Source: Deltaproteobacteria bacterium
GTDB taxonomy: Bacteria > Bdellovibrionota_C > UBA2361 > SZUA-149 > JAITKM01
DNA length: 64,000 nt
Assembly: GCA_031278395.1 (NCBI GenBank)
Contig: JAITKM010000007.1
Location: 1 to 64,000, forward strand
Direction: 5' to 3'
Shown: positions 3,290 through 51,359 of the stretch, in pieces
Position numbering within the stretch: position 1 is the first letter of the stretch
Layout of the letters: every line of letters begins with the position of its first letter
Notes under the pieces: model-generated
What the model was told of the DNA's origin: nothing
Seen by the model: the letters and a program-made list of their open reading frames with translations, nothing else
The model's database searches: none
Program-made: the position numbers and the translations under genes

Positions 3290-3515
3290 ATTTAGTTTTT
3301 CCTTTCTGGTTAGAGAAATGAAAGTGTTTATGTAAAAACCTTAAGAAAAACATTTTCTACGATAAATACAAACGTTATGTTTCTGCCGCAGGATGTTTTT
3401 CTTGAAAACATTTCCGACCGCCAGTATCAAAAAAAAAAAATAAGCAAGTGGTTAAAAAAATTTTTAAAATCTATAAAAATTAACAAGTTATATAAAGCGA
3501 AAGTAACCCGCACCA
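3290..3515 (-). repeat. Leader region duplicated at 7914-8140
   Basis: About 200 bp upstream of the radical SAM gene is almost identical to the region upstream of the truncated copy (7914-8140), with only scattered substitutions and small indels. The similarity ends at the dispersed repeat (here GAAAGTAACCCGCACCA). It contains a small inverted repeat (ATGTTTT with AAAACAT). It probably holds the promoter of both radical SAM genes. The strong conservation compared with the diverged coding regions suggests either a recent duplication or selection on the leader. Confidence 0.8.
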
Positions 3516-3567
3516 TGGGGAAAAACCAGAAAAAAAACACTAGAGTCACAGATAAATAATTATACAA

Positions 3568-4332
3568 TTATACAACCCTATAACGTTTTTCTTCCGGAAA
3601 TTTTCGTAAAAACTCATCAATCGACTGAACAAGATTTGTTTCAGGCTGTTTTCCAATACATTCATCCATATACGAACAAACTTTTGCAATTTCCTGATAT
3701 TGTGAAATGGTGCCATCCGACCATTTATAAAAATTGTCTATCTCATTAATCTCGTTAAAAGCATAAATGCATAAATTATCTACAATCCGCTCTTTCTCTT
3801 CTTGCTGTAATTTAAATCGCTGAACTATTATTTCTTCGATTCCTAAATGCAACATTTCGTGCACGAGAGTAACAGAGACTTTCCAAAAATTATCCCCACA
3901 ATAACCAAAGTCCACAACTCCAAATTTAGCATGATAGCCCGCCCCTGCTCTATAGCAATTTATATCGATTCTATATTCACGCCAAATCTTAAAATCCCAA
4001 CTTTTATTTAACGCTTCAAAGCGTAAATAACACTTTTGAACAATTGGAATTGCTGATTCGATTACCTCAACCATTTTTTTGTGTTCACCAATGTCAAATA
4101 ATTCTATCTTAAATCGTTCAAAATATTTATCACAAAACTGCTTATCATTATCAATTTTTGCCAAACATATATCGTCAATCATTTCATTAATTAATAGGTT
4201 ATTTTTGCTTCGCAGAAATCTTTCCATATAAAGACGATTATTTTTCTTAAACCATTCTAATCGACAAATATTAGAACATAAATTGTTCCACGCTTGATTG
4301 ACATCAGGGATTACAATTTGGAAATTAAACAT
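3568..4332 (-). CDS. HExxH metallopeptidase-like protein, unknown family
   Basis: A 254-residue protein with a clear zinc-peptidase signature HEMLH at residues 158-162 (VTLVHEMLHLGIEE) in the middle and further acidic residues after it. No signal peptide or membrane segment is visible, so it is probably cytoplasmic. I do not recognise the family. It lies on the same strand as, and upstream of, the radical SAM/peptide/M3 peptidase set, separated by the 200-bp leader. It sits between the intact and the decayed copies of that locus. Involvement in peptide processing or immunity is possible but unsupported beyond position. Confidence 0.7.
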   Translation of the reverse strand: MFNFQIVIPDVNQAWNNLCSNICRLEWFKKNNRLYMERFLRSKNNLLINEMIDDICLAKIDNDKQFCDKYFERFKIELFDIGEHKKMVEVIESAIPIVQKCYLRFEALNKSWDFKIWREYRIDINCYRAGAGYHAKFGVVDFGYCGDNFWKVSVTLVHEMLHLGIEEIIVQRFKLQQEEKERIVDNLCIYAFNEINEIDNFYKWSDGTISQYQEIAKVCSYMDECIGKQPETNLVQSIDEFLRKFPEEKRYRVV

Positions 4333-4557
4333 GATATTTAAAAAAAATACTTATAAAAATCGCTATGTAAAAGGGGGTATTTTATCATCTAAAAACACCC
4401 AAAAAGCAAAACCAATTATTAAAAAAGTGCTAATTTTTAACCAAAAAATTAGCAAAAGGAAAAGCATATATGGGGACATCATAGCATACATACTGTATGA
4501 CTATTGCCTTCCATTATAGTCTCTGTCTGCATCACAATCGCAATCACAATTTCTTTC

Positions 4558-4577
4558 TGGTGCAGGGTTACTTTTTG
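4558..4577 (-). repeat. Dispersed repeat copy
   Basis: Reads CTGGTGCAGGGTTACTTTTT, a reverse-orientation variant of the AAAGTAACCCCATACCAG family. It is flanked by ATCACAATCGCAATCACAAT, the same GTGATTGTGATT word that adjoins the copy at 40531-40549. Confidence 0.6.
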
Positions 4578-4795
4578 TTATCTTATCTTTATTATCTTTC
4601 TACGATTACTCTTATATAAAATCAACTGATAAACTGGACGATATATTCTTTTATCATTAAATTTCTTTAGACTGATTTTAAAAGAATCGCAAAAAAAACC
4701 TGCACCAAAATTTTTTCCAATTTTTTTTTTAAATTATACTGGCGGAACCTCAACAGCTTTAAAGTATCCGGGAATTTTTAGAAGTTTCCTAAAAT

Positions 4796-4854
4796 GCCTA
4801 GGGAGAGACTCGAACTCTTACAGGGTTACCTTTAATTAAAGGACTCTCGCTTGC
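4796..4854 (-). pseudogene. tRNA-like 3' half remnant
   Basis: On the minus strand, AAGAG-TTCGAGT-CTCTC has the form of a T-arm (four pairs plus one mismatch, TTCRANY loop) and is followed by CCTAGGC and an A, like an acceptor 3' strand with its discriminator. No matching GCCTAGG 5' half or clean anticodon arm is found upstream, so this can only be a remnant or a chance likeness. Such remnants are often left by element integration. Confidence 0.3.
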
Positions 4855-4941
4855 AAAAACCAATAATTGATCACAAACCAAAGAATATCACAAAATGTCG
4901 CAAGCATAATATATTTACAAAATAATCAACACTGAAATCTA

Positions 4942-6729
4942 TTACGATAACACTACAACTTGAGATAATTCCTCAGCTTCGTCAAGATAATCAGAAATTA
5001 AATTTAGCCCTTTTTGCCAGAAGTCTTTTTGATTAACATCCAATCCAAAGGGTTTTAGCAATTCTTGATAGTCTTTTACTCCTGATTCAGAAAGCAGCTT
5101 TAAATATTTTTCTTCAAAATCTGGAACTAATTTTTCTTGATAAACTTTATATAGCGACTGAACAATACCACTCGCAAAAGAATACGAATAACAATAACAC
5201 GGATGAAAAAAGCAAGTCGGAAAAGAAAGCCATTCATGATTTGGCTTATCCATTAGATTCACCGTCGAGCCAAAATATTTACTTCTTTCTTCCTGAAAAA
5301 TTTGCGCCAAGTGTTCTGCAGAAATCATTCCTTTATTGATTTCTTGATGCGCACGAATTTCAAAATTATGAAATAACGCTGTGTATAAACTATCATTTAT
5401 CATCTGTTGAATTTGGCTCATCAATATTTCTAGTTTTTCTAAATCAGATTTTACAAAGTCTAGTAACTTTCTTAAGGTCAAAAAAGCTCCAAAGGTAGAA
5501 GGAACTTCGCACAAAAATATCGACGAATTATTGTTTAAAATCTTTTGTTGCTTCAAAAAAGTAAAATGACTTGCATGTCCAAGCTCGTGCGCAAGAACTG
5601 CCACATTGCTCCGGGTTCCGGTAAACTGAAGCGAAAGATACGCGCCCCATATGGTCGGTACAGGACAAGCAAAGGCAGTATCTCTTTTACCAGCCCGCAC
5701 CTCTGCGTCTATTACGCGGTTATCAAAAAAATTCTTTACGATTTTATATAGCTCAGGAGAAAACTCTTTATAGGCGCTTAAAATGATAACTTTTGCTTCG
5801 TTCCAGTTGTAACGTTTAGGCTGGATCAAATCTAGTTGCAAATGCGCATCCCAATATGGAATTTTGGATACTCCAAGCAGTCGCGCTTTTAGCTTAAAAA
5901 AACGTTGTGAAATATTTTTATAACTATCATTAACCGTTTGCAACAATAGTTCAACAGTTTTATCATCAACTTGATTATCAAAATTAACCTTAGCCAGAAT
6001 GGAATCAAATTTATAAATATTCGCTTCAATCTTTTGATCCCGTATAATCATGTTATAAAGATACGCAAAAAAATCAGCATTATCAGCATAAACTCTTTGC
6101 CGCTCGTTGTTAATTTCCTTGCGTTTTTTTCCGTTCACCTTATTAAACAATGCCCACAATTCTGGGTTGCTATATTCTTTGTTACCAATTCTAAATCTTA
6201 GCTTAGCAAAAGATTGATTGTAAAGCCTCAGCCAACCAGTAAATGATGTCTCGTCTTTTTTAGACAAAATATTTTTTATAACATCAGACACCTTGTGTGC
6301 ACGATGTCTTCGCAAGTATTTTAGAGCAGGCAAATACTCTCTTAATTTTTTATTTTTCAATAAGCTGCAAAGTTTATTCTCAGGAATAGCAACAATTTCA
6401 TTCTTATAAAACAAAATATTGCTTTCAATATTCTGCAACTGCGCGTGTATCTTGGCACTACCAACTTTAATATTTTTGTAATTCTCCGTTTCTTTTAAAT
6501 AAAAAAATCTCCATAATTTAATGCAAATCTTTTCCAACCTCTCCAGCAACTCAAACATCTCAAACATTTCTTTGGCGTTTAGCTTTGCAATTTTGCCCTT
6601 ATATTTTGCAGCAAAATTAGTTGTTAGCTTCTTATATGTCGCTAAATCTTCTTTTATCTTCGGATCAGAAACCGACTTATACAATCTTGACAAATCCCAA
6701 CGCGGTAACTTTTGATTATTTTCCTTCAT
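4942..6729 (-). CDS. pepF: M3-family oligoendopeptidase F-like peptidase (second copy)
   Basis: A full-length 595-residue M3/PepF-type zinc peptidase with the HELGH motif at 381-385 (VLAHELGHASHF) and a downstream acidic segment (CEVPSTFG) expected to supply the third ligand. No signal peptide is visible, so it is cytoplasmic. It is a paralogue of the peptidase at 1-1655. It lies 48 bp after the decayed maturase (6777-7467) on the same strand, mirroring the order radical SAM then peptidase of the intact locus. No small peptide gene remains in the gap. It may still act as a housekeeping oligopeptidase or as a leader peptidase in trans (inference). Confidence 0.88.
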   Translation of the reverse strand: MKENNQKLPRWDLSRLYKSVSDPKIKEDLATYKKLTTNFAAKYKGKIAKLNAKEMFEMFELLERLEKICIKLWRFFYLKETENYKNIKVGSAKIHAQLQNIESNILFYKNEIVAIPENKLCSLLKNKKLREYLPALKYLRRHRAHKVSDVIKNILSKKDETSFTGWLRLYNQSFAKLRFRIGNKEYSNPELWALFNKVNGKKRKEINNERQRVYADNADFFAYLYNMIIRDQKIEANIYKFDSILAKVNFDNQVDDKTVELLLQTVNDSYKNISQRFFKLKARLLGVSKIPYWDAHLQLDLIQPKRYNWNEAKVIILSAYKEFSPELYKIVKNFFDNRVIDAEVRAGKRDTAFACPVPTIWGAYLSLQFTGTRSNVAVLAHELGHASHFTFLKQQKILNNNSSIFLCEVPSTFGAFLTLRKLLDFVKSDLEKLEILMSQIQQMINDSLYTALFHNFEIRAHQEINKGMISAEHLAQIFQEERSKYFGSTVNLMDKPNHEWLSFPTCFFHPCYCYSYSFASGIVQSLYKVYQEKLVPDFEEKYLKLLSESGVKDYQELLKPFGLDVNQKDFWQKGLNLISDYLDEAEELSQVVVLS

Positions 6730-44918: not shown

Positions 44919-45740
44919 CTACAACTCCAAGATAAACATTACAACTCCGATAACAATTATCATTCCAGCCGCAGCGCATCTTAGAAAAATACTAAATTTA
45001 GACGGCACCTGATGAGCTGCTGGATACTCACAGAGCAACTTTTTTGAGGCGAAAATACTGATTATACCCAGAACACACAAAGCTAAAGCCATACCCGCCG
45101 ACATACAAAATACCAAAATAATACCAGTACCGAGCATTTGCTCAGACATAGTATAAAACAAAAAGGCCAAGATACTTGGACAAGGCACTAAACCCACCCC
45201 AAAACCTAGAAGCCATCCCATTTTTTTCTCGCCGCTCAAAGTCACAAGTCCATGACAACAACACGCGCACGAACATTTATGCAAATGCCGAAACAACATA
45301 AATAATCCTAGCATGGCAATAACTGCATAACTGACAAGCTTCATATATCTTAAGCTACTATCGCCAACAAACATTACCTGCGCCAGCTTTTGCGCCACTA
45401 AAACAATAACAATAGACGAAAGCGCATGAATTAACGCTATCTGGACACCAGCTATTATACCGCGCAAATATCTGGCGTTATGTGAGCTAAAATACGAAAT
45501 TACAACAAACTTTCCATGCCCCGGACCAAACGCATGCAAAACGCCATACAAAAAAGCCAGCGGTATAATCGTCCACAAAACCGCTACATCTCCACTTTCA
45601 AATAAATCAAGCCCCTTAAATAGTTTTTCATAAACATCATCGCCTACCCCAGCATGCGCATAAACTGAAGTCGTCCAACAAAAAATACCAGCTAAAAATA
45701 AAATCCATTTAAACATATTAACCCAACCCTGCCTAATCAC
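44919..45740 (-). CDS. NicO/RcnA-type nickel/cobalt permease
   Basis: 273 residues with about six membrane segments. The first after the signal-like N-terminus holds the family motif HAFGPGHGKFVV, and a second element GFGVGLVPCPSILAFLF is also typical. A Cys/His stretch (CSCACCCHGL) in the cytoplasmic loop may bind metal. It moves Ni or Co ions; direction (uptake or efflux) cannot be read. It is divergent from the Fur-family gene, with the palindromic operator between the two. Confidence 0.85.
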   Translation of the reverse strand: MIRQGWVNMFKWILFLAGIFCWTTSVYAHAGVGDDVYEKLFKGLDLFESGDVAVLWTIIPLAFLYGVLHAFGPGHGKFVVISYFSSHNARYLRGIIAGVQIALIHALSSIVIVLVAQKLAQVMFVGDSSLRYMKLVSYAVIAMLGLFMLFRHLHKCSCACCCHGLVTLSGEKKMGWLLGFGVGLVPCPSILAFLFYTMSEQMLGTGIILVFCMSAGMALALCVLGIISIFASKKLLCEYPAAHQVPSKFSIFLRCAAAGMIIVIGVVMFILEL

Positions 45741-45800: not shown

Positions 45801-45823
45801 TTATTGCAAATGATTTGCAATAA
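45801..45823. promoter_or_regulatory. Perfect palindromic operator (Nur/Fur-box-like)
   Basis: TTATTGCAAAT, one central G, then ATTTGCAATAA: a perfect 11-1-11 palindrome. It contains TTGCAA-N5-TTGCAA, the form described for the nickel regulator Nur. It sits 45 bp before the start of a Fur-family gene and about 60 bp from the start of the divergent Ni/Co permease, so autoregulation and permease control are likely (inference). Confidence 0.8.
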
Positions 45824-45867: not shown

Positions 45868-46251
45868 ATGGCATTGATACGCAATACAGTTCAGAAAAAA
45901 ATGATATTAGACGTATTTCGTAGCACAACTAGCCTGCTTTCAGCAGAAGGTATTTACGAAAAACTTGGCGGCTCAATCGCAAAATCCACTATCTATCGTA
46001 ATATACCTACGCTCGTCGAAAACGGCTTGCTGGAGCTACATTACTTGGACGGCTGCTCAATGTATAAAATCGGCACAAAAAAACACTCGCACTATCTGAT
46101 ATGCGACGTCTGCCATTCCATGACACCAATCTCAGGTTGCAACATTCGCTTCATTGAAAAAAAAGCCAAACGCGAAACTGGCTTTATAATCAAAAAACAT
46201 CATTTACAAATAAACGGTACTTGCCGTAAATGCGCTAAAGGAAAAAAATGA
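45868..46251 (+). CDS. Fur-family metal-responsive repressor
   Basis: 127 residues. N-terminal winged helix (STIYRNIPTLVENGLLE), then the dimer domain with HSHYLICDVCHSM, a C-x-x-C zinc site, and a second CRKC near the C-terminus. Fur, Zur, Nur and PerR cannot be separated by eye. The Nur-like operator and the Ni/Co permease next to it favour nickel sensing (inference). Its stop overlaps the start of the CooC-like gene by 4 bp, so it heads the operon. Confidence 0.92.
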   Translation: MALIRNTVQKKMILDVFRSTTSLLSAEGIYEKLGGSIAKSTIYRNIPTLVENGLLELHYLDGCSMYKIGTKKHSHYLICDVCHSMTPISGCNIRFIEKKAKRETGFIIKKHHLQINGTCRKCAKGKK

Positions 46252-47186
46252 GAATAGGATTTTTAGGCAAAGGCGGTAGCGGCAAAACTACTATTGCCGC
46301 CGGCTATATAAATTATTTAACTGGATTGAACAAACATGTTTTAGCTTTTGATGCCGACGTCAACGTCCACCTCGGCGCTACGCTTGGCATGCAAGTTAAA
46401 GATATAGCTAGTTGGTTTCCTAAAATTGTTCGAGAACTTGACCCCAACCGTCCAGGTGCCAACATGTTTATCGGCACTACTCCGCCAACACTTGCCACGC
46501 ATTTTATTACCCCAACAGCCAATGACGAATTTATAAAAAAATACGCTACCCAAAAAGAAAACATCAGCCTAATCACAATCGGCACCTACGATGGACAACG
46601 CGCTGGTAGCGCCTGCTATCACAGCATGCTCGGCGTAGCAGAGTTCATTGGTTCGCGTCTACTGGATAGCCAAAACAGCCGTGTAGTTCTAGATATGACC
46701 GCAGGAATTGACAGCATCGGAACTGGTATGCACTTTATTGCAGATCTGAATATCTTTGTAGTCGAAGCCACAAAAAAAAGCATAGATGTCTATTTGGACT
46801 TTAAAGAAAAAACAAAAAATCTTAATCTCAAAACGCTAGTAGTTATCAACCAAAGCGAGGGCATCCATGACGAAACTTTCGTCCAAAAATATATTACCGC
46901 TAATGAAATAATAGCCGTCTTTGGCAAGTCCCAAAATATCAAAGCCTTTGAGCAAGGCGAGAATGCAGCGTTCGCTCGCTTTGTAGCTGAACACGCAAAC
47001 TCGTTTGCTTATATCGAAACTGAACTTTCCAAGCTCAATAAGGACTGGGACGAATATTACAAAAAACTCTTAAAAACATATCAGAACAACTGCCACGAAT
47101 GGTATAATGGGTTTTATGGTTGCGATCTAACTGAACTTGTCGATAAAGATTTCTCGTATACAAAGGTTTTAGCTAACCATGCTTAG
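46248..47186 (+). CDS. CooC-like P-loop ATPase
   Basis: 312 residues of the MinD/SIMIBI class with the deviant Walker A GKGGSGKTTIA at 7-17 and DAD at 38-40. The overall pattern is that of CooC, the ATPase that helps insert nickel into carbon monoxide dehydrogenase. Where CooC has its metal-binding C-x-C, this protein reads GSACYHSML, giving C-x-H. No CODH gene is seen. The last 60 residues are unlike CooC. It overlaps the genes on both sides by a few bases, so it is translationally coupled to the Fur-family gene and the PLP enzyme. Confidence 0.85.
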   Translation: MRIGFLGKGGSGKTTIAAGYINYLTGLNKHVLAFDADVNVHLGATLGMQVKDIASWFPKIVRELDPNRPGANMFIGTTPPTLATHFITPTANDEFIKKYATQKENISLITIGTYDGQRAGSACYHSMLGVAEFIGSRLLDSQNSRVVLDMTAGIDSIGTGMHFIADLNIFVVEATKKSIDVYLDFKEKTKNLNLKTLVVINQSEGIHDETFVQKYITANEIIAVFGKSQNIKAFEQGENAAFARFVAEHANSFAYIETELSKLNKDWDEYYKKLLKTYQNNCHEWYNGFYGCDLTELVDKDFSYTKVLANHA

Positions 47187-48573
47187 ATTCGCTCCATGTA
47201 TCTCCGAGACTGTCGCGCAATTTCTAGATAATCAAACTTTGCCGTTTGAGCTTATCCGAGCGTTTGGCTCTCCGCTAAATATAGTTTACCCCAGAGAAAC
47301 ACAGACCAATATTGCACAGTTTAAGGCTATCTATGCCAAATATAATTTATCTGGCGCAATATTCTGGGCGCACAAAACTAATCAAGCGCACTCCTTTGCA
47401 ATTGAAATTGCTGCGAATGGAATAGGTATAGATGTAGCTTCAAAAAACGAACTAATCGACGCCCTGGCTGCTGGGTTTTGTGGAGAACGCATAGAAGCCA
47501 CTGGACCGAAAAATGAAGATTTTGTCCGTCTTGGTTTACAACATGGAATTTTATTTAATGTTGATAATCTCGACGAACTAAAACTTATAGCTGCACTAGT
47601 TCGTAAAACTACTGCTCCCGCAAGGATACTGCTTAGGCTATCTGGTTTTGCTGGAATTGGCAGAAAAAGCCGTTTTGGTATCAGTGTGTGGCAATTTGAC
47701 CAGGCGCTAGATTACCTTAAGCAGCACGGCGCAGCCTTTGATTTTCTAGGACTTGCCCTGCACTTAGACACAATAGAAATAAGAGAAAAAGCAACTGCCA
47801 TCTCTGAAATATTAAAATTATTTTTTAAAGCCAATGCTGCTGGAGCAACTCTGAAAATCTTAAATATCGGCGGCGGCTTTCGGGTTAATTATCTTGCTTC
47901 AAAATCTGAATGGAATAATAGCGTGTCAAAGTTAAAACAAAGTATTGCAGGAGAAATTCCAGCTTTGACTTGGAATAACTATTCCTACGGCGCACACCTA
48001 GAAAATAAGAGATTTCGCAACAGCCCCAACATTTATGATTTTTATAACGAAACTACAGGCGCCGATTATTTTGACGCACTACTGACAACAACGCTTGAGG
48101 ATTTTGAAGGACGTAAAATTGGCGAATTTTTATCCGAAAATATGATTAATCTCTATATTGAACCTGGCAGTTCACTACTTGCCAGAGCTGGGGTAACTCT
48201 AGCACGAGTTGAATTTGTCAAGCAAAGCGCTGACCAGGAAATGCTTGTCGGATTGGATATAAAAAAAAGTGATTTGTTTATGGGGCATGAGCTTTTTGTC
48301 GATCCAATAATTTTATCACGCCAACCTAATACCAAGCCCAGCGAATTTTATATGCTCGGCAACCTCTGTCTGGAAAACGACATGTTAAGCCTACGCAAGG
48401 TGTTTGCGGAAACTACGCCACAAAAGGGCGATATCTTCGTTTTTGCAAACACAGCGGGATATTTTATGGATTTTAACGCAAGCAACTCGATAATGCATGA
48501 ACCAGCGCAAAAAATCGCCGTGTATCAAAATTCGCTTGGAACCTTGGAATGGTGTCTTGATAAGAAATATTAG
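47179..48573 (+). CDS. PLP-dependent decarboxylase-fold enzyme (Y4yA/LysA-like)
   Basis: 464 residues with the fold-type III decarboxylase pattern: WAHKTNQAHSF (PLP lysine region, about 51-61), ASKNELIDALAAGF, LALHLDTIEI (usually HxGS), ILNIGGGFRVNY (glycine-rich phosphate site) and YIEPGSSLLARAGVTL. The C-terminal half is close to Y4yA-type enzymes rather than classical diaminopimelate decarboxylase. The substrate is unknown. It overlaps the upstream ATPase gene by 8 bp. A long hairpin follows its stop. Confidence 0.85.
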   Translation: MLRFAPCISETVAQFLDNQTLPFELIRAFGSPLNIVYPRETQTNIAQFKAIYAKYNLSGAIFWAHKTNQAHSFAIEIAANGIGIDVASKNELIDALAAGFCGERIEATGPKNEDFVRLGLQHGILFNVDNLDELKLIAALVRKTTAPARILLRLSGFAGIGRKSRFGISVWQFDQALDYLKQHGAAFDFLGLALHLDTIEIREKATAISEILKLFFKANAAGATLKILNIGGGFRVNYLASKSEWNNSVSKLKQSIAGEIPALTWNNYSYGAHLENKRFRNSPNIYDFYNETTGADYFDALLTTTLEDFEGRKIGEFLSENMINLYIEPGSSLLARAGVTLARVEFVKQSADQEMLVGLDIKKSDLFMGHELFVDPIILSRQPNTKPSEFYMLGNLCLENDMLSLRKVFAETTPQKGDIFVFANTAGYFMDFNASNSIMHEPAQKIAVYQNSLGTLEWCLDKKY

Positions 48574-48578
48574 TAAGT

Positions 48579-48635
48579 ATCTACCGCTCCGCATTTTTTC
48601 TTTGCAAATCAAAAAAAAAATGCGGAGCGGTAGAT
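48579..48635. terminator. Long hairpin between two operon segments
   Basis: A 21-bp stem: ATCTACCGCTCCGCATTTTT on the left pairs with AAAAATGCGGAGCGGTAGAT on the right around an 11-nt or so loop. It could terminate in either direction, though the T and A runs lie inside the stem. It would lower transcription of the two genes downstream compared with the first three. Confidence 0.65.
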
Positions 48636-48665
48636 TAATTTAGGAACAAAAAATTAAGAATAACT

Positions 48666-49967
48666 ATGATTTACACCAGTATCCTGGATTACATTGGTCA
48701 AACGCCGTTACTAAAAATAGCTCCTGAAATTCACGGATTGAATAATGTCGAGCTTTACGCCAAGTGTGAATTATTCAATCCGTTCGGTTCAGTAAAGGAC
48801 AGAACTGCGCTAGCTCTGGTTAAAAAACATCTCACAGAATTAAAATCATCAGGACAAACATTTCTTGAAAGTTCAAGCGGTAACACAGCCAAAGCTTTAC
48901 AGGTAATATTATCAATGTCTGGCATAGAGTTCAAATCTGTTACCAACAGAATCAAAACTCCAGAGGTGCGCGAAATACTTTCAGCACTTGGGGCTAAGCT
49001 GCAAGAACTGCCCGGACTTTCCGAATGCCCTGATCCAACAGATCCATATAACCCTATCTCTTACATTGCGAACATGATTTCCCGTAACCCGAAAAAATAC
49101 TTTCAAAACTCGCAATATTACAGCCTTGATAATCCAGCAATTCACCACACCACAGGAACTGAGATCTTCGCCGACCTCGGCGCACTGGATTATTTTTTTG
49201 GTGTTCTTGGCACAACAGGTTCAACACGTGGTGTAACTGAATTTATTAAAAACAAAAACCCAGCACTTCAAACCATCGGCATTATAGCAGAAAAAGGCGA
49301 CTATTTACCCGGCATACGTAACCAGGACGAAATACACGAAGTCGGTATTTTTGAGCGCTCGCTTTATACCGACATTGTCCAAATCAGCGTGGACGCCGCA
49401 ATAGACAGCATGCTGATTTTGAATCGTAAGTGTGGGCTGTTATGCGGTCCAACCAGTGGCGGAGCATTTGCAGGAACTATTGCTTATCTCAAATCCAATC
49501 CGCCGCCCAAGTTGTCCAAAGTTGTCTTTATAGCTTGCGATAGATTGGAATGGTATATGTCGTATCTTAAAAAATACAGACCTAGTTTGTTTGGGGGGGA
49601 GAACAAAGAAAATGTTCACAACCTAACAGAGCAAGAAATTCAAGCAGCGGCAGTTGTTTCGGCGGAGGATGCACCAAAATGGATAGCCGAAAACAAACCG
49701 CTAATCATTGACTTACGCGGGAATACGGCTTTTAAAACAGCTCATCTTCCTGGCTCCATCAACATAACCGACAATATTTTTGAAGACCTGACGCAGTATG
49801 CTCCGCCATTTTCAAAAGGTAATAAAGTGTTACTTGTCTGTCCGGTCGGGGATAGGTCACGAGCCTTTGTAGCGCTCCTTTTGCGTAAGGGGTTTGACAG
49901 CGCGTATTCGCTTGACGGCGGCATAGTTAAATATAGAGACTTGGGATGGGCGCTAGAACGGAGTTAA
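48666..49967 (+). CDS. Cysteine synthase-like enzyme fused to a rhodanese domain
   Basis: 433 residues. Residues 1-310 or so are a fold-type II PLP enzyme: the PLP Lys lies in NPFGSVKDRTAL (about 38-49), the phosphate site in SSSGNTAKAL, and CGPTSGGAFAGT is near 270. The C-terminal 100 are a rhodanese domain with LIIDLRG, HLPGSINI and the active-site loop CPVGDRS. This implies sulfur or sulfane chemistry in one chain. The closest general type is CysK/CysM or SbnA. It overlaps the next gene by 22 bp. Confidence 0.88.
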   Translation: MIYTSILDYIGQTPLLKIAPEIHGLNNVELYAKCELFNPFGSVKDRTALALVKKHLTELKSSGQTFLESSSGNTAKALQVILSMSGIEFKSVTNRIKTPEVREILSALGAKLQELPGLSECPDPTDPYNPISYIANMISRNPKKYFQNSQYYSLDNPAIHHTTGTEIFADLGALDYFFGVLGTTGSTRGVTEFIKNKNPALQTIGIIAEKGDYLPGIRNQDEIHEVGIFERSLYTDIVQISVDAAIDSMLILNRKCGLLCGPTSGGAFAGTIAYLKSNPPPKLSKVVFIACDRLEWYMSYLKKYRPSLFGGENKENVHNLTEQEIQAAAVVSAEDAPKWIAENKPLIIDLRGNTAFKTAHLPGSINITDNIFEDLTQYAPPFSKGNKVLLVCPVGDRSRAFVALLLRKGFDSAYSLDGGIVKYRDLGWALERS

Positions 49968-51151
49968 AGATGAATATAGATAAAATTCGTTCAGATTTTC
50001 CATTCTTCAAAGATTCAAACTTGATCTACTTTGACAATGCGACTACCACGCAAAAGCCCGAGATAGTTTTGGCAGCAACAGACGACTTATTAAGAAATGG
50101 GCTAACAAATGCATGGCGGGGCAGTCATATGCTGGCAAATAAAGCCGCTATGATTCTTGAAAATGTCCGAACAGCGACAGCAAAATTTATCGGAGGTGCA
50201 GCGGACGAAATTGCATTTACTCCTGGATCGACCTATTCTATGAATACGCTAGCATATGCGTGGGGACTATATAATTTAGAAGACGGAGATGAAATTTTGC
50301 TCTGCTATGAAGACCATAAATCTACAATTTTGCCATGGCTGGAGCTTGTCAAAACACTTGCCAAATTCGGAAAAAATATCAAGGTAATTTCTATCCCAAT
50401 TCATCCACACGGCGATTATGATGATGCAGAACTTGCAGCACGCCTGACACCTAAAACACGAGTTATAATTCTGACGCACATTCATAGCTATTTTGGAACA
50501 GAGATGAATATTGCGCTAAATATAGCCGAGATTCGGCGATATAATAAGAAAATCAAAATATTTATAGATGGCACAGGTGCGGCTGGACATATCCCGGTTG
50601 ATGTAGGCAGTCTGGGTTGTGACGCTTATCTGTTTACTGGACATAAAATGTGTGCACTTCCGGGAGTTGGAATTCTTTGGATAAGCAAAGATGTTCAGCA
50701 TGAACTACAATTTTTTATTTTTGGAGCTAACCCAGATTCACAGGGCTTGCGGATGTTGGAGAGTGGAACCTATAACATGCCAGCAATTGTCAGTCTGGGT
50801 GCAGCCATAAAATATATCGAAAAAATCGGGTTGAATAAGATAGAGCAGTATATATCCGATCTGACACGCAAGCTTGCTAACGGGTTAAACGCAATTCCAG
50901 GACTAATAATCGAAAGAGGGGCGTCGTTGTGTAAATGCCAATCCTACGGAATTTGCACTTTTGGAATTGAGGGGATGACTGGCGCTGACATATCCTACGT
51001 GCTAAACGAACATAAAATTTATGTCCGTGCGGATAATTTTTGCTTTGAAAATTCAGCCAAACTAACTTCCAGTGTCCGCGCCAGCTTGTATTTTTATAAT
51101 ACAGAAAACGAAGTTGAAAACTTTATCCGCAGAGTTCAGGAAATGTGCTAA
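49946..51151 (+). CDS. Class V aminotransferase (cysteine desulfurase/SufS-like)
   Basis: 401 residues with SufS-type motifs: LIYFDNATTTQKP, AFTPGSTYSMN, FIDGTGAAGHIPVDV and the PLP lysine in LFTGHKMC (about 234). A Cys in YVRADNFCFENSAKL lies where SufS keeps its persulfide Cys in RAGHHCA. It may mobilise sulfur from cysteine. It comes right after the cysteine synthase-rhodanese gene, overlapping by 22 bp, so sulfur relay between them is plausible (inference). The start at 49946 may be late; MNIDKIRSDFPFF at 49970 is the more family-like start. Confidence 0.88.
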   Translation: MGARTELKMNIDKIRSDFPFFKDSNLIYFDNATTTQKPEIVLAATDDLLRNGLTNAWRGSHMLANKAAMILENVRTATAKFIGGAADEIAFTPGSTYSMNTLAYAWGLYNLEDGDEILLCYEDHKSTILPWLELVKTLAKFGKNIKVISIPIHPHGDYDDAELAARLTPKTRVIILTHIHSYFGTEMNIALNIAEIRRYNKKIKIFIDGTGAAGHIPVDVGSLGCDAYLFTGHKMCALPGVGILWISKDVQHELQFFIFGANPDSQGLRMLESGTYNMPAIVSLGAAIKYIEKIGLNKIEQYISDLTRKLANGLNAIPGLIIERGASLCKCQSYGICTFGIEGMTGADISYVLNEHKIYVRADNFCFENSAKLTSSVRASLYFYNTENEVENFIRRVQEMC

Positions 51152-51359
51152 GGATTTTCAGTTAATCGTGCTGGCTGGCAAAAATACAGAGATGCTAAAA
51201 AGATTAGAGGCACTCGCTCAAAAATATCCAGCGCGTCTTTGTCCGCAAGGCTTTACAAACGAAGTTGAAAAATTCACGGTAGTTTCGAATTTAATTATTA
51301 CTAAGGTGTTTGGAAATTGCGCTGCGCTTTGCCAGCATATCTGTAAAATAAACTTCTGA
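51147..51359 (+). pseudogene. Fragment of a MurG/MGDG synthase-like glycosyltransferase
   Basis: A frame overlapping the end of the aminotransferase reads FQLIVLAGKNTEMLKRLEAL, then CPQGFTNEVEKF and VVSNLIITKVFG. This follows the C-terminal half of diacylglycerol glucosyl/galactosyltransferases (LVVCGKN, GFT, SDLLITKPG). The N-terminal domain and the end are missing, so it is a relic, likely left by recombination at this operon border. Confidence 0.5.

Follow-up and report, generated by a model that had tools for sequence, protein, structure and literature searches.

The zincophore [S,S]-ethylenediamine-disuccinate ([S,S]-EDDS) of Amycolatopsis japonicum, a small amino-polycarboxylate under the control of Zur, is made without any nonribosomal peptide synthetase (NRPS) by cysteine-synthase-like and decarboxylase-type enzymes. 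The two characterised enzymes with a CysK-rhodanese architecture are both fungal and both form C-N bonds: aspergillomarasmine A (AMA) synthase, which adds O-phosphoserine units to L-Asp to give AMA, a ligand that binds Zn2+ with a Kd of 0.2 nM (PMC8319579), and Fda4 of Fusarium poae, which condenses O-phosphoserine and L-Ala en route to L-2,3-diaminopropionate (Dap) with the assistance of an FAD oxidase (PMC12751119). Here we describe a bacterial operon built around such a fusion, at positions 45868-51151 of a stretch of 64,000 nucleotides (the window), which covers positions 1-64,000 of the forward strand of contig JAITKM010000007.1 from a Deltaproteobacteria bacterium (GCA_031278395.1). The reading that we favour, with a probability of roughly one half, is that of a metal-starvation operon, most likely responding to zinc starvation, which would make a small amino-carboxylate metallophore or zinc ligand and employ a CooC-like ATPase to handle the metal. 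The sequences show a conserved gene set with conserved catalytic residues, a Fur-type candidate operator and, next to relatives of the operon, genes of zinc limitation.

Gene order and conservation

The five genes of the operon, followed by their divergent neighbour and the palindrome between them, are:

45868..46251, plus strand: Fur-family metalloregulator, 127 aa (FUR, 3e-16)
46248..47186, plus strand: CooC/MinD-type P-loop ATPase, 312 aa (CbiA/MinD-CooC type P-loop, 1e-8)
47179..48573, plus strand: fold-III decarboxylase dependent on pyridoxal phosphate (PLP), LysA/Y4yA type, 464 aa (Orn_Arg_deC_N/lysA, 1e-23 and 1e-33)
48666..49967, plus strand: fusion of a CysK/CysM-like beta-substitution domain and a C-terminal rhodanese domain, 433 aa (PALP, 7e-42; Rhodanese, 4e-15)
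49946..51151 (start possibly 49970), plus strand: SufS-like class V PLP enzyme, 401 aa (Aminotran_5/SufS, 1e-79)
44919..45740, minus strand: NicO/RcnA-like metal permease gene, divergent from the operon and sharing with it the intergenic region of the candidate operator
45801..45823, no strand: perfect 11-1-11 palindrome TTATTGCAAATGATTTGCAATAA, candidate Fur-family operator in the intergenic region of NicO and fur

When the GTDB species genomes were searched with a profile of the fusion, at least 572 relatives came to light. Far from co-occurring rarely, the flanking genes are almost always present in the best 80 loci, which were fetched: the Y4yA/LysA-type gene lies directly upstream of the fusion in 79 of them and the SufS-like gene directly downstream in 77. 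As judged from these neighbourhoods, the grouping is not due to chance and is a real functional unit. The loci are spread over Actinomycetota, Melainabacteria, Chloroflexota, Bacillota and others, and include actinomycetes of the genera Streptomyces, Nocardia, Actinoplanes, Micromonospora, Hoyosella and Cellulomonas, members of the Melainabacteria/Obscuribacterales, one Ktedonobacterium, and metagenome-assembled genomes (MAGs) labelled Rickettsiales, Bacilli and Lithacetigena. The order Fur-ATPase-Y4yA-CysK-rhodanese-SufS is identical in a ruminant MAG (L024, RUI239, 29% G+C), and a Bacilli MAG (L028) has all five genes with fur in last place. In a Rickettsiales MAG (L023) the ATPase and SufS-like genes are missing, and the divergent arrangement of NicO and Fur is repeated in front of the Y4yA and CysK-rhodanese genes. 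As for the pairing of the ATPase with the fusion, the latter occurs in 6 of 45 genomes of the window's phylum and the ATPase in 4, all of them within those 6 (Fisher p = 1e-4).

The window genome is the only one of 15 in its order with the ATPase, and a maximum-likelihood tree groups its CysK-rhodanese protein with those of L023, L024 and L028 (support 99/98), apart from the phylum members L017-L022. Vertical inheritance within the phylum is thus disfavoured. Because the gene clusters with those of gut MAGs from other phyla, and not with its own phylum, its acquisition by transfer is probable, and the tree suggests horizontal transfer among ruminant gut bacteria, as far as the MAG labels hold. 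No relative of the ATPase was found in viral contigs, hence no link to phages.

The initial annotation, made from the DNA letters alone, had named these five families on one strand, and Pfam and NCBIfam searches bear it out. Of the overlaps that it took as signs of coupling, those of 4 nt between the Fur and ATPase genes (46248) and of 8 nt between the ATPase and decarboxylase genes (47179) stand, whereas that of 22 nt at 49946 depends on the start codon, since the two genes would lie 2 nt apart if translation began at the in-frame ATG at 49970. The decarboxylase and CysK-rhodanese genes are separated by a 92-nt gap containing a strong hairpin with a 20-bp perfect stem (-37 kcal/mol, z -8.7), so that a single continuous five-gene transcript is not proven. 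This hairpin, at 48579-48634, could be a dispersed element of terminator-like or repeat type: about 15 near matches to its half-stem CTACCGCTCCGCATTTTT occur at other places in the genome, whereas the reversed control gives 1. An Rfam scan of the region found no RNA element, and the results of a promoter and terminator scan were at chance level. After the operon, a small open reading frame (51072-51359), probably a gene remnant, weakly resembles diglucosyl diacylglycerol synthase, its residues 17-80 aligning with positions 220-282 of the model.

The encoded proteins

In the case of the fusion, the PLP lysine (Lys44) and S71-G72 of the SGNT loop are kept in 76 of 76 sequences, and Cys392 of the rhodanese domain is conserved, together with a Cys121 in the CysK domain that is specific to the family. 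Arg218 of a PGIR motif, which would bear on O-phosphoserine as the donor, is also conserved, but E. coli CysM has this motif as well. Identity as a simple cysteine synthase was rejected, with 153 bits against the curated NCBIfam CysM cut-off of 413. The four best PDB matches of the predicted structure (pLDDT 91) by Foldseek are all AMA synthase, one of them bound to O-phosphoserine, and a sequence profile makes the two proteins homologous collinearly, through the linker and into the rhodanese domain. By these structural and profile matches, the fusion is the bacterial counterpart of AMA synthase and a member of the AMA synthase/Fda4 architecture. AMA synthase retains a cysteine in its rhodanese loop and, like Fda4, forms C-N bonds, so that a rhodanese fusion alone does not imply sulfur chemistry.

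The decarboxylase keeps its PLP lysine (Lys66) and catalytic cysteine (Cys397) in practically all of 82 sequences. In the SufS-like protein, the PLP lysine (Lys234), the desulfurase cysteine (Cys366) and the substrate arginine (Arg378) are essentially invariant, and it thus carries the residues expected of SufS/IscS desulfurases. The sulfur-containing product or metal-sulfur cofactor suggested in the initial annotation is thus possible, in view of these residues and the conserved rhodanese Cys, but would not follow from the rhodanese fusion alone. Three clusters of the window's phylum encode, in addition, long divergent proteins of 509-558 aa (L019, 6169-7845; L020, 6378-8048, minus strand; L022, 3610-5139, minus strand); two of them have Cys_Met_Meta_PP matches to transsulfuration PLP enzymes, and that of L020, which has no Pfam match, is grouped with them by position and size.

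The ATPase has a Walker A motif GKGGSGKTT with a conserved lysine. CooC (3kje) is its sole PDB sequence match (8e-17), and CooC1 is the best structural match of its predicted structure (pLDDT 90). The metallochaperone-type, CooC-like ATPase of the initial annotation is thus supported in fold and sequence but not in the metal motif, where GSQCYC of 3kje aligns with GSACYH: C123-[YF]-H125, in the window C123-Y124-H125, is invariant in 20 of 20 cluster ATPases, while CooC has CxC there. An authentic CooC of a carbon monoxide dehydrogenase (CODH) operon was rejected (L004; CxC test failed), and no CODH gene was recognised in the window region or in the neighbourhoods examined, the remaining genome not having been searched for them. 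In L019, a CooC-like ATPase with a fused C-terminal HAD hydrolase domain (3303-4991) lies beside a second ATPase copy.

Regulation, metal and product

Apart from the fur gene of the operon, no Fur-family gene was found in the genome (1.7 Mb, 92% complete). The quality of the palindrome upstream of fur was reached in 0 of 200 shuffles, and its core TGCAAATGATTTGCA has one exact occurrence in the whole genome. It has the 7-1-7 frame of Zur-type boxes and differs from the Zur consensus in one symmetric pair. The NicO permease is a probable functional partner of the operon. It may be the genome's main importer for the regulated metal; no ZnuB-type (ABC-3) permease was found in this genome. Cluster-linked Fur proteins (L023, L025, L026, L028-L032, L036 and the window) have an extra conserved cysteine about 9-10 residues past CxxC, which is missing from znu-linked actinobacterial Zur proteins.

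The metal is suggested by the relatives. Genes for znuB, CobW/yciC or zinc-free S14/L28, found within about 10 kb of 16 of 67 actinobacterial or Ktedonobacteria loci, are classical targets of Zur, whose regulons also include zinc-free enzyme paralogues (PMC6103462). ABC-3 permease genes stand beside 7 of 44 loci, even though a genome has just a few of them; about 0.2 would be expected if 8 Mb contain 1.8 ABC-3 sites (Poisson p about 2e-9). Scoring with the Zur consensus of S. coelicolor gives at least 14 bits in 14 of 62 upstream regions, as compared to 5.5% of control regions, and in a separate search, boxes of the form TGNNAANNNTTNNCA with five or more complementary arm pairs were present in 10 of 77 upstream regions, against 1.2 expected (p = 4e-7). 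One of these boxes, upstream of the L028 cluster, is exactly TGAAAATGATTTTCA, the published S. coelicolor consensus (PMC2823685). In Kitasatospora humi, both ATPase copies outside the core cluster sit in islands with znuABC, zur, S14, L28 and CobW; in most other Streptomyces the ATPase is located away from such islands. From this gene and motif content, zinc is a better candidate for the metal than nickel.

In the pathway that we infer for substrate, product, metal and the roles of the desulfurase and the ATPase, scarcity of the metal would release the Fur-family protein from the palindrome, and the operon, perhaps with the divergent permease gene, would be expressed. The CysK-rhodanese enzyme would use O-phosphoserine or an O-acyl-serine and transfer the alanyl group to the amino group of another amino acid, yielding, by likeness to AMA synthase and Fda4, a Dap-type amino-polycarboxylate. 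The Y4yA/LysA-type enzyme would then decarboxylate the conjugate or its cleavage product, whereas the SufS-like desulfurase could load a persulfide on the rhodanese domain, either for regulation or to bring sulfur into the product. The resulting small zinc ligand or metallophore would be served by the CooC-like ATPase, whose Cys-X-His pair may move the metal in an ATP-dependent manner and which would take the part that the COG0523/YciC GTPase plays in other Zur regulons. A metallophore, already among the products first suggested for these genes, is the most likely product class.

Several observations weigh against this proposal. The zinc assignment of the window is drawn by homology from relatives that are mainly Actinobacteria, and 51 of the 67 actinobacterial and Ktedonobacteria loci have no zinc gene nearby. 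The core TGCAAATGATTTGCA is presumably compatible with sites of the nickel (Nur) or manganese (Mur) type as well. The window Fur has glycine at the position of the Zur M-site cysteine and lacks most PerR ligands, so that its metal is not predictable from sequence, and the attempt to assign it from ligand residues failed. A dedicated exporter or receptor is missing from the window operon, which is unusual for a secreted metallophore; the ligand may therefore act inside the cell. Finally, the conserved desulfurase Cys/Arg and rhodanese Cys point to a sulfur chemistry that would be superfluous in a pure C-N pathway.

This last point leads to the main rival, a sulfur-bearing product. In a sulfur relay, which we regard as a possible but less probable reading, the SufS-like desulfurase would pass sulfane sulfur through the rhodanese domain to the PLP-bound aminoacrylate of the CysK domain, and the thiol or thioether amino acid so formed would be decarboxylated by Y4yA. 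The outcome would be a zinc ligand that contains sulfur or, with the CooC-like ATPase taking part in the assembly, a metal-sulfur cofactor. Either kind of product is possible because the desulfurase Cys and Arg and the rhodanese Cys are conserved, and the near invariance of these residues and of the desulfurase Lys, the family-specific Cys121 and the presence of a NifS/IscS-type desulfurase in L020 and L022, which have no SufS-type gene, would all fit such a relay. However, AMA synthase keeps its rhodanese-loop cysteine despite its C-N chemistry, the L018 and L023 clusters have no desulfurase nearby, and, with serine as the acceptor, relaying sulfur from cysteine would amount to a futile cycle. 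Somewhat more doubtful is the specific version in which, across phyla, a small zinc ligand containing sulfur is the joint product of the desulfurase, the rhodanese-fused synthase and the fold-III decarboxylase, and the Cys-X-His ATPase loads it with metal or unloads it; if true, this would be a complete zinc supply system distinct from ZnuABC and the COG0523 proteins.

An unlikely alternative is that the operon makes no metallophore and offers a zinc-independent route for an ordinary function, such as sulfur supply or cysteine synthesis at times when steps that depend on zinc fail. The folds of cysteine metabolism in the gene set and the lack of an exporter would agree with it, as would the zinc-free enzyme paralogues of Zur regulons (PMC6103462), comparable to the zinc-free ribosomal ones, but it leaves unexplained the LysA/Y4yA decarboxylase, the fusion of AMA synthase type and the methyltransferase, oxidase and acyltransferase tailoring genes of other clusters. 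Still less probable is a pathway to a nickel metallophore or a nickel-sulfur cofactor, controlled by a regulator of the Nur type. In its favour, the ATPase matches no PDB sequence other than CooC, NicO genes diverge from the operon in the window and in L023, and the operator contains TTGCAA-N5-TTGCAA, which we take to be close to the Nur box. Against nickel, which the initial annotation had considered and which is not favoured here, every cluster ATPase has CxH instead of the CxC of CooC, no CODH or other nickel enzyme genes lie near the clusters examined, and the relatives adjoin znuB, yciC/CobW and zinc-free ribosomal protein genes rather than nickel genes, with 7-1-7 Zur-type boxes enriched upstream and the exact consensus in L028. 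A siderophore cluster of the NRPS or NRPS-independent (NIS) type was rejected, with no IucA/IucC synthetase or NRPS module among the genes at 44.0-54.6 kb, as was a staphyloferrin B Dap module (SbnA model 137 bits against a cut-off of 350; no SbnB-type gene).

Variant clusters and comparison with known systems

Variant clusters elsewhere add methyltransferases, FAD oxidases, a GNAT or exporters, and an FAD oxidase of the CrtI/amine-oxidase type lies directly behind the core in many Melainabacteria clusters and in L020. The Y4yA decarboxylase elsewhere pairs with ordinary SbnA/CysK enzymes together with ornithine-cyclodeaminase, FAD/NAD, MATE and iron-ABC genes. Plasmids of Mycobacterium chimaera (L008) and Sulfitobacter (L009) carry small metallophore-like modules with a Y4yA-family decarboxylase, its partners being cysteine-synthase-like genes with a MATE exporter and ArsR, or SbnA with an FAD/NAD protein. 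By analogy, the theme common to these related modules is a small, non-NRPS, Dap-derived metal ligand.

Other genes recur beside the clusters. Small ParB_N-like proteins (L019, 1639-2016, minus strand; L021, 4761-5195, minus strand; L007, 8372-8806) are possibly free-serine kinases supplying O-phosphoserine, like SbnI, a ParB-like free-serine kinase. A small His-rich protein with repeated CGHxAVPHxDHVDY...HGDHVDEH motifs and no Pfam match, likely zinc-binding, is encoded near several clusters (L026, 19071-19394; L005, 10041-10343; L053, L096, L102 and L037). A conserved family of about 400-550 aa (L031, 5795-7372, with relatives in 9 other loci), found in Melainabacteria and related MAGs, has no Pfam, NCBIfam or PHROGs match.

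No named pathway with this gene set was found described in the open-access literature, in agreement with the initial annotation, while subscription journals could hold one; yet the at least 572 related loci include many in well-studied actinomycetes, and the system is directly testable in cultured Streptomyces, of which S. glaucescens and S. viridochromogenes carry the cluster (L087, L091). If the product is a zinc ligand, this would be a common metallophore route that is neither NRPS nor NIS. With this reading, bacteria would supply relatives of the enzyme that makes AMA, an inhibitor of metallo-beta-lactamases that chelates zinc, and the ATPase would become a candidate for an ATP-driven zinc metallochaperone.

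The operon resembles several known systems in part. The SufS-like protein keeps every catalytic residue of the SufS cysteine desulfurase, but no SufBCD/SufU neighbours are seen and, in the 77 of 80 loci counted above, its gene directly follows the fusion. The ATPase shares with CooC the P-loop fold, the GKGG(S/A/V)GKT signature and a cysteine at the metal-motif position, and differs in its Cys-x-His, in about 50 extra C-terminal residues and in operon context. As in the SbnA/SbnB/SbnH module of staphyloferrin B, an SbnA-type PLP beta-substitution enzyme is combined with a fold-III decarboxylase, but neither an SbnB-type dehydrogenase nor an NIS synthetase is encoded in the window operon. Set against [S,S]-EDDS biosynthesis, the operon has no ornithine-cyclodeaminase-like or lyase gene and possesses SufS-like, rhodanese and ATPase parts instead. 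The closest likeness is in domain order, a CysK-like PLP domain and then a rhodanese domain, with AMA synthase (8H4H/8H4Q) and Fda4, for which O-phosphoserine is the alanyl donor and the products are of Dap type or zinc-chelating; these enzymes are fungal and about 24% identical, and no SufS or CooC-like partner has been described for them.

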